Below are positions 22,036-48,664 of a stretch of 64,000 nt of DNA, piece after piece; within the stretch, counting starts at the first letter, position 1, and each line of letters begins with the position of its first letter. Made by a program: the position numbers and the translations under genes. The notes beneath the pieces are model-generated. The model saw only the letters and a list, made by a program, of their open reading frames with translations. It made no database searches and was not told the origin of the DNA. This stretch comes from Archangium primigenium (lineage in GTDB: Bacteria > Myxococcota > Myxococcia > Myxococcales > Myxococcaceae): the NCBI RefSeq assembly GCF_016904885.1, contig NZ_JADWYI010000001.1, forward strand, positions 3,162,001 through 3,226,000, in the 5' to 3' direction.

Positions 22036-22081
22036 GGTGAGTTCCGTCACCAGTCACAACGGTTGTCACCAGCGCGGGTGA
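22036..22081 (+). promoter_or_regulatory. Probable activator binding region shared with the M4 protease gene
   Basis: GGTGA-N6-TCACC (22036-22051) is an inverted repeat with CCG before the right half. TTGTCACCA (22063-22072 region) follows, and a further TCACC-N6-GGTGA pairing ends at 22081. The same GGTGA-N3-CCG-TYAYC pattern and TTGTCACCA appear at 36502-36540 with nearly identical spacing, and again at 36583-36598. The sites sit about 80-125 bp upstream of a -24/-12 element, as enhancers for sigma-54 activators do. Confidence 0.6.
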
Positions 22082-22158
22082 GGGCGGCGCCTCTGCTTGG
22101 CCCCCCGTGACGGGGCCAACTCCTTGATATTCCGAGCGCTTCGGACGGATGGGGACCG

Positions 22159-22174
22159 TGGCACACCTCGTGCT
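22159..22174 (+). promoter_or_regulatory. Sigma-54 type -24/-12 promoter
   Basis: TGGCACACCTCGTGCT: GG at 22160-22161 and GC at 22172-22173 have the exact 12-base spacing of the sigma-54 consensus TGGCAC-N5-TTGC (here GTGC). The first twelve bases of the surrounding CGTGGCACAC.TC.TGCTCT are repeated at the M4 protease promoter. The predicted start, about 12 bases on, gives a leader of about 44 bases to ATG 22229. Confidence 0.65.
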
Positions 22175-22228
22175 CTTGGGTAGGGGCACGTCGTCGCCTT
22201 CCTCCTCTCGCCGCCACCGAGGCCGCCC

Positions 22229-23320
22229 ATGTCCCTGCCCATCGCCGCCCGCCGTCCCCTGCTGCCCACCGCCCTCGCCGAGTCCCTCCCGAGCCAGGTG
22301 AACATGCCGATGGTGCGGAACCCGATGGCGCGGGGCCTGGGGACGCCGGCCATCCCCCTGCAGGATCCCCTGCGGCCGCCGTCCGCCACCGGGGGCTTCA
22401 GCGGCGGCCTCACCACCGTCACCGCGCCCAACCCCAACGTGTCCTTTGGCGGCTACTCCGGCGTGAGCACCTTCGAGCAGGGCCCCTTCCGCGGGCCGAG
22501 CGCGGAGATGGGCGGGAGTGGCCGGGCCCAGTGGGGCGCCACGGGCGGCGGCGGGCGCCTGGATGGCCACATGGGCGCGGGCGTGGGCGGGGTGAGCGTC
22601 CAGGGTGAGCTGCCCGGTGGCATCCAGGGCGAGGCGTACGCCGAGGGTCCGAGCATCAGCCTGGATGGGCACGCCGACGCCTCGGTGGGCGCCACCGGGT
22701 TGAACATCAGCCTGGGCCTGGACGTGGACGCCACGCTCGCCGAGGCGGGCGCGAGCGGCAAGAAGACGATCGACTTCGAGGTGGCGGGCGAGAAGTTCTC
22801 CGCGGAGCTGGACCTGGCGGCGATGGGCAAGATTGGCGCCGAGGGCCACATCAACCTGGACGTGAAGCTGGGCCTGACGGGCGCGTCCATCTCCGCTCGG
22901 GCCGAGGGCTTCGCGGGCGCCAGGGCGTCGCTGAGCGGCGGCGTGACGCTCAAGCACAACGACGACATGCTCGCCCAGGGGAAGATCACGGCGAGCGCCA
23001 CCGCGGGCGTGGGCGGCGATGCGCACGCGGACCTGTCGCTGGAAGGCGGCAAGGTGAAGTTCGACGTGGGCGCCGAGGCCACCACGGGCGTGGGCTTCGG
23101 GCTGGACGTGACCGGTCAGGTGGACGTGGGCGCCACGGCCAAGGCCGTGGGCGACGTGCTCAAGGTCAACGCCGAGAAGGTCGTGGAGGACGTGAAGGAA
23201 GGCGCCGGCAAGGTCGTCGAGGAGGTGAAGGAAGGCGCCGGCAAGGTCGTCGAGGAGGTGAAGGACGGCGCCGGCAAGGTCGTCGACAAGGTCGGGGACT
23301 TCTTCAAGGGCCTGTTCTGA
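22229..23320 (+). CDS. Glycine-rich repeat protein of unknown function
   Basis: 363 aa, no signal peptide. After a Pro-rich N-terminus, a Gly/Ala/Asp-rich body repeats short beta-like phrases (GLNISLGLDVDATL, INLDVKLGLTGASIS, GKITASATAGVGGDAHADL, VKFDVGAEATTGVGFGLDVTG). From about residue 309 the sequence ends in 11-residue repeats (KVVEEVKEGAG, three full copies and a partial fourth) that would form an amphipathic helix, like LEA-type proteins. Upstream are a sigma-54 promoter and activator sites shared with the M4 protease at 36762. It converges on the TPR gene. No catalytic motif is seen; a structural, surface or toxin-like role is possible (inference only). Confidence 0.75.
   Translation: MSLPIAARRPLLPTALAESLPSQVNMPMVRNPMARGLGTPAIPLQDPLRPPSATGGFSGGLTTVTAPNPNVSFGGYSGVSTFEQGPFRGPSAEMGGSGRAQWGATGGGGRLDGHMGAGVGGVSVQGELPGGIQGEAYAEGPSISLDGHADASVGATGLNISLGLDVDATLAEAGASGKKTIDFEVAGEKFSAELDLAAMGKIGAEGHINLDVKLGLTGASISARAEGFAGARASLSGGVTLKHNDDMLAQGKITASATAGVGGDAHADLSLEGGKVKFDVGAEATTGVGFGLDVTGQVDVGATAKAVGDVLKVNAEKVVEDVKEGAGKVVEEVKEGAGKVVEEVKDGAGKVVDKVGDFFKGLF
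23177..23293 (+). repeat. 33-bp in-frame tandem repeat
   Basis: Three full 33-bp units (23177-23275) and a partial fourth encode KVVE(E/D)VK(E/D)GAG. The units are nearly identical in DNA, so recent expansion or contraction is likely. The helix has charged and hydrophobic faces. Confidence 0.85.
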
Positions 23321-36501: not shown

Positions 36502-36598
36502 GGTGACGCCCGTCATCAGGCCCGAAGTGTTGTCACCACCCCTCCCGGGCCCCCTCCACCGAGGGGCTTCACCGCCCGTCGTGGTGACATCCGTTATC
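36502..36598 (+). promoter_or_regulatory. Activator binding region with three operator-like sites
   Basis: Site 1: GGTGA-cgcCCG-TCATC (36502-36517), then TTGTCACCA (36530-36538). Site 2: TCACC/GGTGA pairing around 36569-36587. Site 3: GGTGA-catCCG-TTATC (36583-36598). Together with 22036-22051 this gives three copies of GGTGA-N3-CCG-TYAYC in the window, all upstream of -24/-12 elements. The rest of 36466-36761 is GC-rich leader without other genes. Confidence 0.6.
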
Positions 36599-36672
36599 GG
36601 TCATCCGGCGCCCGGCGCGCTCCCCCTCAATGAAATCCAGGGGTTGTCGCGCTGAAGGTCTGACGCGGTGCG

Positions 36673-36688
36673 TGGCACACATCATGCT
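36673..36688 (+). promoter_or_regulatory. Sigma-54 type -24/-12 promoter
   Basis: TGGCACACATCATGCT: GG at 36674-36675 and GC at 36686-36687, 12 bases apart. The bases TGGCACAC and TGCTCT match the element at 22159. The predicted start about 12 bases on gives a leader of about 63 bases to ATG 36762. Confidence 0.65.
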
Positions 36689-36761: not shown

Positions 36762-38588
36762 ATGATCATCTCCAACAAGCAGACCCCGGTCTCCGCTCCC
36801 GCCGTTGCCGCCACGCCCGCCGCCCCCCAGGCGCCGACCGCCGCGCCCACCGCCGCCGCCTCCAAGCCCGCCCAGGGCTTCTCCCAGGCCTCCACCTTCG
36901 CCACCGCCGCCGCCACGCCCGCGGTGAAGCTCTCGGCCGCCAGCGTCGCCTCGGCCGCCCGCACCTCCGGCCCGCTGGCCCTGGACAGCCAGCGCGCCCA
37001 GTCCGCCATCCAGAAGTCGGTGGACTTCCTCCAGGCCACCAGCCTCAGCCAGCGCGGCGTGGTCCCCAGCGCGCCGGTGGCCGCCTCGGTCAAGCCCAGC
37101 CAGGTCTTCTCCGATGCGCTGGGCATGACGCACGTGCGCCTGGACCGCCAGCACGAGGGCGTGAAGGTGTTCGGCGAGCAGGTCATCAGCCACCTGGACA
37201 AGGAAGGCAACGTGGCGGACGTGACGGGCGCGCTGTCCACCATTCCCACGGGCCTGGGCGCCTCGCCGGTGAAGCTCAGCGCGAAGGACGCGCTGGACGT
37301 GGCCCAGAAGGCCTTTGGCAAGGAGGCCTCGCGCGCTCCTTCCTCCGAGCGGGTGGTGGTGCAGGGTCAGGACGGCCAGTACCACGCCGCCTACCACGTG
37401 CAGCTCGACAAGCTCTCGGACTTCAAGGCCGGTGAGGGCCCGAGCCGCATGAACTACTTCGTGGACGCCAACAGCGGCGAGCTCCTGGAGAGCTTCGACC
37501 AGATCGGCGGCTTCGAGCACGAGGTGAAGCACGCCCAGGAGCACGCGGCCGAGGGTGGGGTCGAGGCGCCCGGCACCGACGTCCCGTCCAAGCCCCTGCC
37601 GCCCACGGCCCAGGGTGACGACCAGACGATGTACAGCGGCAAGGTGGACCTCTCCACCACGAAGAAGGCCGACGGCACCTACACCCTCGAGGACACCTCC
37701 CGCGGCGGTGGCGTGGTGACCTACGACGGCCAGAACAAGGCGCGCGCCAGCGGCCAGGTGCAGTTCACCGACAAGAACGACGCGTGGGGCGAGGTGACGG
37801 ACGACGCGCGCACCAAGGCGGCGGTGGACGCGCACTACGGCGCCGAGATGACGTACGACTTCCTCAAGGACGTGCTCGGCCGCAACTCCCTGGACGACAA
37901 GGGCGAGAAGCTCGTGTCCTACGTCCACGTGGACAAGAACCTCGTCAACGCCTTCTGGGACGGCGAGAAGATGAGCTACGGCGATGGCGACGGCAAGACG
38001 GCCGGTCCGCTCACCACGCTGGACATCGCGGGCCATGAAATCGCCCACGGCCTCACCGAGCGCACCGCGGGCCTCGTGTACCGGGGTGAGTCGGGCGGCC
38101 TGAACGAGGCCTTCAGCGACATCATGGGCACGGGCGTGGAGTGGTACGCGTCGCAGAAGAACCCGAACGTGAAGTTCGACTGGAGCATGGGCGAGGACGC
38201 CTGGAAGCCCGGAAACAAGACGGGCGAGGCGCTGCGCTACATGAACGACCCGACCCAGGACAACTACTCCATCGACAACTACAAGAACTACCCGAAGCAG
38301 CAGGAGGTCCACGGCTCCAGCGGCATCGCCAACAACGCCTTCTACCTGCTCACCGAGGGCGGCAAGAACCGCACGTCGGGCCTGGAAGTGAAGGACGGCC
38401 TCGGCATGGAGAAGAGCCTGAAGATCTTCGGCCGGGCGCTCACCACGTACATGACGCCCAACACCACCTTCTCCCAGGCGCGTGACGCCACCATCAAGGC
38501 GGCCACGGACCTGCACGGCGCCAACTCGGTGGAAGTGCAGAAGGTGAAGGACGCCTGGACCGCGGTGGGGGTCGAGTCCAAGAAGTAG
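36762..38588 (+). CDS. Thermolysin-like (M4) zinc metalloprotease
   Basis: 608 aa. The catalytic motif is HEIAH with His425 and His429, and the third zinc ligand Glu449 in GGLNEAFSD, 20 residues later as in thermolysin. A pro-domain with FTP-like features (residues about 100-250: VFSDALGMTHVRLDRQHEGVKVFGEQ) precedes it; the C-terminal part (NNAFYLLTEGGKNRTSGLEVKDGLG) supplies the substrate-side His region. There is no classical signal peptide; the N-terminus is Ala/Pro-rich, so export would use another route or cleavage. ATG 36762 has GAAAGAAGG upstream. The gene is controlled by a sigma-54-like promoter and shared operator. Confidence 0.92.
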   Translation: MIISNKQTPVSAPAVAATPAAPQAPTAAPTAAASKPAQGFSQASTFATAAATPAVKLSAASVASAARTSGPLALDSQRAQSAIQKSVDFLQATSLSQRGVVPSAPVAASVKPSQVFSDALGMTHVRLDRQHEGVKVFGEQVISHLDKEGNVADVTGALSTIPTGLGASPVKLSAKDALDVAQKAFGKEASRAPSSERVVVQGQDGQYHAAYHVQLDKLSDFKAGEGPSRMNYFVDANSGELLESFDQIGGFEHEVKHAQEHAAEGGVEAPGTDVPSKPLPPTAQGDDQTMYSGKVDLSTTKKADGTYTLEDTSRGGGVVTYDGQNKARASGQVQFTDKNDAWGEVTDDARTKAAVDAHYGAEMTYDFLKDVLGRNSLDDKGEKLVSYVHVDKNLVNAFWDGEKMSYGDGDGKTAGPLTTLDIAGHEIAHGLTERTAGLVYRGESGGLNEAFSDIMGTGVEWYASQKNPNVKFDWSMGEDAWKPGNKTGEALRYMNDPTQDNYSIDNYKNYPKQQEVHGSSGIANNAFYLLTEGGKNRTSGLEVKDGLGMEKSLKIFGRALTTYMTPNTTFSQARDATIKAATDLHGANSVEVQKVKDAWTAVGVESKK

Positions 38589-42784: not shown

Positions 42785-48664
<5,880 letters not shown>

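Follow-up and report, generated by a model that had tools for sequence, protein, structure and literature searches.

A putative sigma-54 regulon with a tandem palindromic operator in Archangium primigenium and related Myxococcota

In a stretch of 64,000 nucleotides of the Archangium primigenium genome (assembly GCF_016904885.1, contig NZ_JADWYI010000001.1, positions 3,162,001–3,226,000 of the forward strand; this whole stretch is referred to as the window), two non-homologous genes, one encoding a glycine-rich protein and the other an M4 metalloprotease, are preceded by a sigma-54-type promoter and by copies of a palindromic operator. The same architecture was found at 15 promoters in the 9.49 Mb genome, both window loci among them, and it is highly probable that both promoters of the window are part of a single sigma-54 regulon, one that is run by a bacterial enhancer-binding protein (bEBP) with an FHA domain and that makes proteins of an exported type. 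The sequence supports the DNA elements of this regulon strongly and the assignment of the bEBP well, and from these we infer the binding of the operator, the use of an integration host factor (IHF), the signalling from a kinase to the FHA domain, and the export and role of the products.

Operator and promoter architecture

Upstream of the glycine-rich gene, the following elements were located.

22036–22051, + strand: operator GGTGAGTTCCGTCACC, one mismatch to GGTGAC-N4-GTCACC
22055–22070, + strand: second operator, degenerate, with only the right half GTCACC good; 19 bp from the first, the same two-turn spacing as in other members
22117–22129, − strand: IHF-like site TATCAAGGAGTTG, an exact match to WATCAANNNNTTR
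22159–22173, + strand: sigma-54 −24/−12 promoter TGGCACACCTCGTGC
22229–23320, + strand: glycine-rich protein of 363 amino acids without a signal-peptide-like segment

The corresponding elements of the M4 gene are as follows.

36502–36517, + strand: operator GGTGACGCCCGTCATC, one mismatch, at −171 from the M4 promoter
36522–36537, + strand: degenerate operator with the right half GTCACC, 20 bp from the first
36583–36598, + strand: operator GGTGACATCCGTTATC, two mismatches, at −90 from the M4 promoter
36634–36646, + strand: IHF-like site AATCCAGGGGTTG, one mismatch
36673–36687, + strand: sigma-54 promoter TGGCACACATCATGC
36762–38588, + strand: M4 metalloprotease of 608 amino acids with an FTP and PepSY propeptide and without a signal-peptide-like segment

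The original prediction had proposed a −24/−12 element before the glycine-rich gene with an operator about 120 bases upstream, and both were borne out: the spacing of GG and GC in TGGCACACCTCGTGC fits sigma-54, the operator lies 123 bp from the promoter, and it is followed by TTGTCACCA at 22063–22071. From the position of this promoter, a transcript start would be expected at around 22184–22186. The same parts had also been proposed to recur in the same order before the M4 gene, with spacing equal to within one base. The parts and their order are indeed shared, with TTGTCACCA at 36530–36538, but the first M4 operator reads TCATC instead of TCACC; the equal spacing holds inside the operator pair (27 versus 28), but not between operator and promoter, where the distances are 123 and 171 bp. 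The M4 operator at 36583–36598 was absent from that prediction, and the start of the M4 gene was reassigned in the present analysis to an ATG downstream of the promoter. Peptidase_M4 and M4_C domains together with the FTP/PepSY propeptide were found at 36762–38585, which identifies the product as an M4 peptidase.

The glycine-rich protein has one paralogue in the genome, which likewise stands under a composite promoter. Its structure model predicts antiparallel β-strands and C-terminal helices at low confidence (mean pLDDT 57), and no Foldseek match was obtained at E ≤ 0.001, the weak rows including many outer-membrane barrels. As a separate observation, of three upstream sequences inspected at loci with homologues of this protein in other genomes (L229–L257), two, those of L233 and L250, carry GGAAAC-containing stretches, which may represent another promoter type.

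Controls in the A. primigenium genome

Comparison of the sites gave the palindrome GGTGAC-N4-GTCACC as the operator, flanked by T in 27 of 35 sites and by A in 26 of 35, and a scan of the fetched loci showed that it mostly stands in duplicate or triplicate, the copies often spaced by about 20 bp, 89–171 bp upstream of TGGCAY-N6-TGC. The exact operator pattern occurs 25 times in the genome and its reversed control not at all; all three matches in the window fall in the upstream regions of the glycine-rich and M4 genes, and upstream regions treated in this analysis account for 12 of the 25 (11 at counted promoters, plus the one at 652791). The palindrome itself has 14 perfect copies, nine of which belong to counted promoters, and 182 matches at up to one mismatch, versus 12 for the control. 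This excess of single operators is probably inflated by codon use, and those away from promoters lie in part at least inside open reading frames; a control was therefore added in which both words, operator and promoter, are kept and only the distance between them is changed.

The −24/−12 pattern alone occurs at chance level in the window (15 matches at up to one mismatch versus 14.9 expected), as does the longer form TGGCACACNTCRTGC genome-wide (14 at the same threshold versus 22 in the control), and the promoter claim thus depends on the operator and on position. The four exact genome matches of TGGCACACNTCRTGC are all at operator-bearing promoters. When right half-operator and promoter were joined as GTCACC-N70-100-TGGCAYN6TGC, 14 genome matches representing 12 promoters were obtained, versus two control matches. 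All 12 were kept, and three further promoters, that of the M4 gene among them, were added from operators outside this pattern to give the 15. TGGCA and TGC are invariant in these, largely by construction, as most were found by way of TGGCAY-N6-TGC. The exact long pattern GGTGANNNNNNTCACCNNTTGTCACCA has no match in the genome.

Several candidate placements were dropped: one on the minus strand in L011/L012/L028, and those in L019, L035, L042, L045 and L049, whose promoter matches had two mismatches in every case. On closer look, no convincing promoter and target accompanied the perfect operators at 1035320 (L042), 5356411 (L045) and 6497715. Also left uncounted was a tandem of two perfect operators (652771/652791) that precedes a gene in the locus of the candidate activator, as by eye only a weak −24/−12-like TGGATTACCTTTTGCA lies about 150 bp downstream. 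As a side observation, a 38-kb region holds four copies of TGGCTCACCTCGTGC, all on the same strand (L032–L035, G000:C1 3342628–3380425, minus strand), perhaps as a repeated coding sequence.

IHF-like element

In sigma-54 systems, an enhancer, an IHF-induced bend and the promoter follow one another in that layout. Between operator and promoter, a match to WATCAANNNNTTR, which we take to be the IHF consensus, was found at up to one mismatch in 10 of the 15 A. primigenium promoters (five exact) and in 16 of 29 promoters of relatives (two exact), whereas shuffling gave a mean of 0.12 in each set, with maxima of two and one, respectively. The remaining five A. primigenium promoters have no match at this threshold. 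The element starts 38–44 bp upstream of the −24 element in A. primigenium, and in relatives near 39–40 or 28–29 bp upstream, positions about one helical turn apart, with a single case at 49 bp. It played no part in the composite search and was absent from the original prediction. The repeated dyad sites, at about the 80–170 bp upstream that is usual for enhancers of bEBPs, and the IHF-like site that often stands between such enhancers and the promoter, are thus both present in the sequence.

Distribution in Myxococcota

Of 195 Myxococcota genomes, 37 contain the full composite, GGTGACN4GTCACC-N65-95-TGGCAYN6TGC, with 73 places in total, and all 37 fall within five genera of the family to which A. 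primigenium belongs. Neither the reversed composite nor the control with shifted spacing (N225-255) gave a match in the 195 genomes. This search is strict, since it demands a perfect operator with a promoter 65–95 bp further on, and it recovers only two of the 15 A. primigenium promoters. A sigma-54 promoter and operator common to non-homologous genes, as originally predicted, are thus found well beyond the window, and common regulation is supported as the natural reading of this shared architecture. Whether the operator falls at random positions, which had been named as a ground for refutation, was checked in part: the composite disappears at the wrong spacing, but many single operators at up to one mismatch stand elsewhere. 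Such single operators, and the chance-level frequency of the −24/−12 pattern, are what would be expected if the operator were a codon-biased word and the promoters random matches. The composite counts against both controls contradict this explanation, as do the independent IHF-like element and the coherent set of targets described below, and its likelihood appears negligible.

Candidate activator

The gene that is probably the activator of the regulon, judging from linkage and co-occurrence, lies outside the window at about G000:C1:650821–652203. Among the 47 matches to Sigma54_activat (PF00158) in the genome, it alone has perfect operators at a distance of no more than 5 kb, five in number. 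Its product carries FHA (PF00498, 5.2e-15), Sigma54_activat (3.6e-63) and Fis-type helix-turn-helix (PF02954, HTH_8, 1.5e-5) domains, together with the motifs GETGTGKE and GAFTG, and a gene with Pkinase and PEGA domains according to Pfam stands immediately upstream. Homologues of at least 69% identity are present in 61 of the 96 genomes of the family (genera g1, g3, g6, g7, g8 and g19). All 37 genomes with the composite are among these 61 and none among the other 35, where the best matches are far weaker (E of 1e-150 or worse, and 57–58% identity at most where listed). A bEBP of at least 69% identity is found no further than 5 kb from at least 13 of the 73 composites, with well under one expected by a rough estimate. 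In fetched loci of g1, g3, g6, g7 and g19, the bEBP stands beside a kinase-like gene, called by motif in these relatives and tested with Pfam in A. primigenium only, and targets whose composite sites are in part relaxed lie within a few kilobases.

The shape of the operator leaves room for a different protein. GGTGA-N6-TCACC resembles the CRP-type site TGTGA-N6-TCACA, and with 47 Sigma54_activat matches there are many candidate bEBPs, so that a regulator of, for example, the CRP/FNR family might bind the operator and modulate sigma-54 promoters that are driven by another bEBP. However, 34 of the 35 aligned operators have G and not T as their outer base, as compared with the commonly quoted consensus only; tandem copies about two turns apart and 89–171 bp upstream suit a bEBP, and linkage between the FHA-bEBP gene and such sites recurs. 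Binding by a CRP/FNR-type protein is accordingly rated as quite improbable.

A closer competitor is the binding of the operator by one or several close paralogues, FHA-bEBPs of 69–77% identity, instead of by the linked gene product alone. Homologues of 67–77% identity occur in genomes labelled Corallococcus, Myxococcus, Pyxidicoccus and Hyalangium, and many genomes of the family hold two or more such paralogues. The DRVYLRKL region is present in most of the listed homologues, and the longer GIDRVYLRKL region is retained in most of those linked to operators; a second type of bEBP, of 72–74% identity, adjoins operators in Corallococcus (L157, L159) and in L082, L085 and L095. The 73% paralogue of A. 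primigenium itself, however, differs in this recognition region, reading GIDRMYLYKL, and the 12 kb around its gene contain no composite. Regulation through paralogues is considered unlikely, and the linked FHA-bEBP is preferred as the activator.

Two further observations concern the bEBP locus. The N-terminal domain of the FHA-bEBP (L050:2822–4201) matches Yop-YscD_cpl, the FHA-like cytoplasmic domain of SctD of the type III secretion system (T3SS), at 5.4e-27, above FHA, a resemblance that by itself indicates no functional link to T3SS. A conserved family of proteins that start with MSVRL and mostly carry a D/E-G-M-D/E motif occurs near the FHA-bEBP in several genera (L050:4993–7317, which is G000:C1 653.0–655.3 kb, and L267–L270). 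The model of the member in the bEBP locus is of low confidence (mean pLDDT 62); no Foldseek match at E ≤ 0.001 was found, the best VIA-align Z score of 7.0 is within the common range, and an NCBIfam scan of the family gave nothing meaningful.

Target proteins

The 44 targets considered, 15 of A. primigenium and 29 of relatives, fall into 17 sequence families. Those of relatives represent 29 of the 71 composite places outside A. primigenium, one per genome after a duplicate of A. primigenium itself (L100) was dropped, and many are mutually orthologous; seven further g19 loci were inspected and left out of the counts. The domains found include the M4 protease with propeptide, SLT transglycosylase, Asp f 4-like, thaumatin and a transglutaminase core, and most other families have no significant match among the Pfam families scanned. 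By a crude hydrophobicity test, a signal-peptide-like segment is present in none of the 15 A. primigenium targets and in one of the 29 from relatives, versus 30% of 191 background genes. The median content of Ser, Thr and Pro in residues 2–30 is 0.34 and 0.41, respectively, versus 0.21 in the background; for six A. primigenium proteins and a few from relatives, the start was moved to a Met further downstream, a choice biased towards Ser-rich starts, and the background starts, taken as first ATGs in genes from fetched flanks, T3SS stretches and the window, are surely wrong in some cases. A motif D[SG]F[DEGSQ], selected after viewing these same targets, occurs in residues 21–130 of 21 of the 44 (four of 15 and 17 of 29), versus two of 191 background proteins. 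Three paralogous regulon proteins (L108, L109 and L057; G000:C1 5364 and 6236–6239 kb) carry KPDVKPSTPK-like repeats; two of them hold long GAPMMDPYAAAGGLPPEL arrays, and two are encoded next to each other, with a separate composite promoter for either gene.

Transglycosylases, like M4 proteases that carry a propeptide, work outside the cytoplasm, and export by a route other than Sec is therefore the likeliest reading for the targets. The absence of a Sec signal and an N-terminus rich in Ser, Thr and Pro, which are typical of type III effectors, are both seen here, a trait that is necessary and far from sufficient.

Proposed mechanism

In the proposed mechanism, the neighbouring Ser/Thr kinase would probably signal to the FHA domain and so switch on the bEBP, which would assemble on the tandem palindromes. 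An IHF-like protein would bend the DNA about 40 bp (about 29 bp in some relatives) upstream of the −24 element. Sigma-54 polymerase would be driven by the bEBP to form the open complex at TGGCAY-N6-TGC, and the output would be the coordinated production of enzymes and other proteins without Sec signals and with Ser/Thr/Pro-rich N-termini, which are probably exported.

Several findings weigh against a single regulon of this kind. The composite is present in none of the 29 loci with homologues of the glycine-rich protein in other genomes (three of these being cut off upstream), and the membership of the glycine-rich gene therefore looks local and lineage-specific. Of the 61 genomes with a close bEBP homologue, 24 have no strict composite, 20 of these being among the 27 of genus g19. 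The co-occurrence of bEBP and composite probably rests on one clade and not on many independent events. The recognition region reads ARLYVRKL in the operator-linked bEBP of L170 and in that of L172, where the site is weak, and DRVYLKKL in L156 and L178; several paralogous bEBPs could share the operator. One target from a relative (L081) has a classical signal peptide.

Apart from these loci, the window encodes on the minus strand (42785–48664) a hybrid histidine kinase of 1959 amino acids that combines about nine HAMP domains in tandem with GAF and HisKA domains and three receivers, and its gene contains 8.8 copies of a 276-bp DNA repeat at 45798–48214.

Comparison with known systems

The regulon, as read from its sequences, is one that works like other sigma-54/bEBP regulons, with an activator that fits the sequence definition of an FHA-bEBP. 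In promoters of the NtrC/NifA type, an upstream enhancer is followed by an IHF bend and a −24/−12 element; the layout here is the same, with a different operator and with FHA input instead of a receiver or GAF domain. A 2005 study by Jelsbak, Givskov and Kaiser reportedly, to judge from its title, concerns FHA-domain bEBPs of M. xanthus and a sigma-54 regulon in fruiting-body development. The present protein is alike in its FHA, sigma-54 activation and Fis-type helix-turn-helix domains, and is distinguished from those proteins, as far as the title tells, by a defined operator and targets of an exported type. The Nla28 regulon, in the parts of the published account available (PMC9765219), also comprises a bEBP whose repeated sites precede sigma-54 promoters and were in part discovered by scanning the genome, but the Nla28 half-site, CT(C/G)CG(C/G)AG in direct repeat, differs from GGTGAC-N4-GTCACC, and its targets are developmental. 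A description of the present operator was not found in the literature searched, which was judged partly by titles and covered few subscription papers and preprints.

The T3SS*/Kil system of M. xanthus carries out contact killing and lysis. In the portions available, a 2023 review calls its putative Kil effectors unknown (PMC10433427) and a 2025 paper on Kil/T3SS* only postulates T3SS* effectors (PMC12075869); Sec signals are missing from the targets described here, among which are domains that degrade cell walls or proteins. T3SS clusters as members of the regulon were rejected, with one one-mismatch operator in about 74 kb around two SctV genes, and SctV is present in 94 of the 96 genomes of the family, far more widely than the regulon, so that co-occurrence with T3SS is uninformative. 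We hypothesize, as a tentative and rather doubtful extension, a tie to the Kil/T3SS* effectors in which the products of the regulon would be the effectors so far missing for a predation machine that acts on contact, exported by a needleless T3SS*/Kil or another non-Sec exporter, with a Ser/Thr/Pro-rich start, D[S/G]F in about half of the proteins and varied lytic domains, and switched by a relay from Ser/Thr kinase to FHA-bEBP to sigma-54. The targets would then possibly be tools for killing or digesting prey; were they cytoplasmic or unrelated to prey, a well-delimited sigma-54 regulon would still stand. For contact-dependent killing of prey, the regulon provides a defined and conserved list of candidate effectors, together with a promoter signature and one candidate for the master activator.
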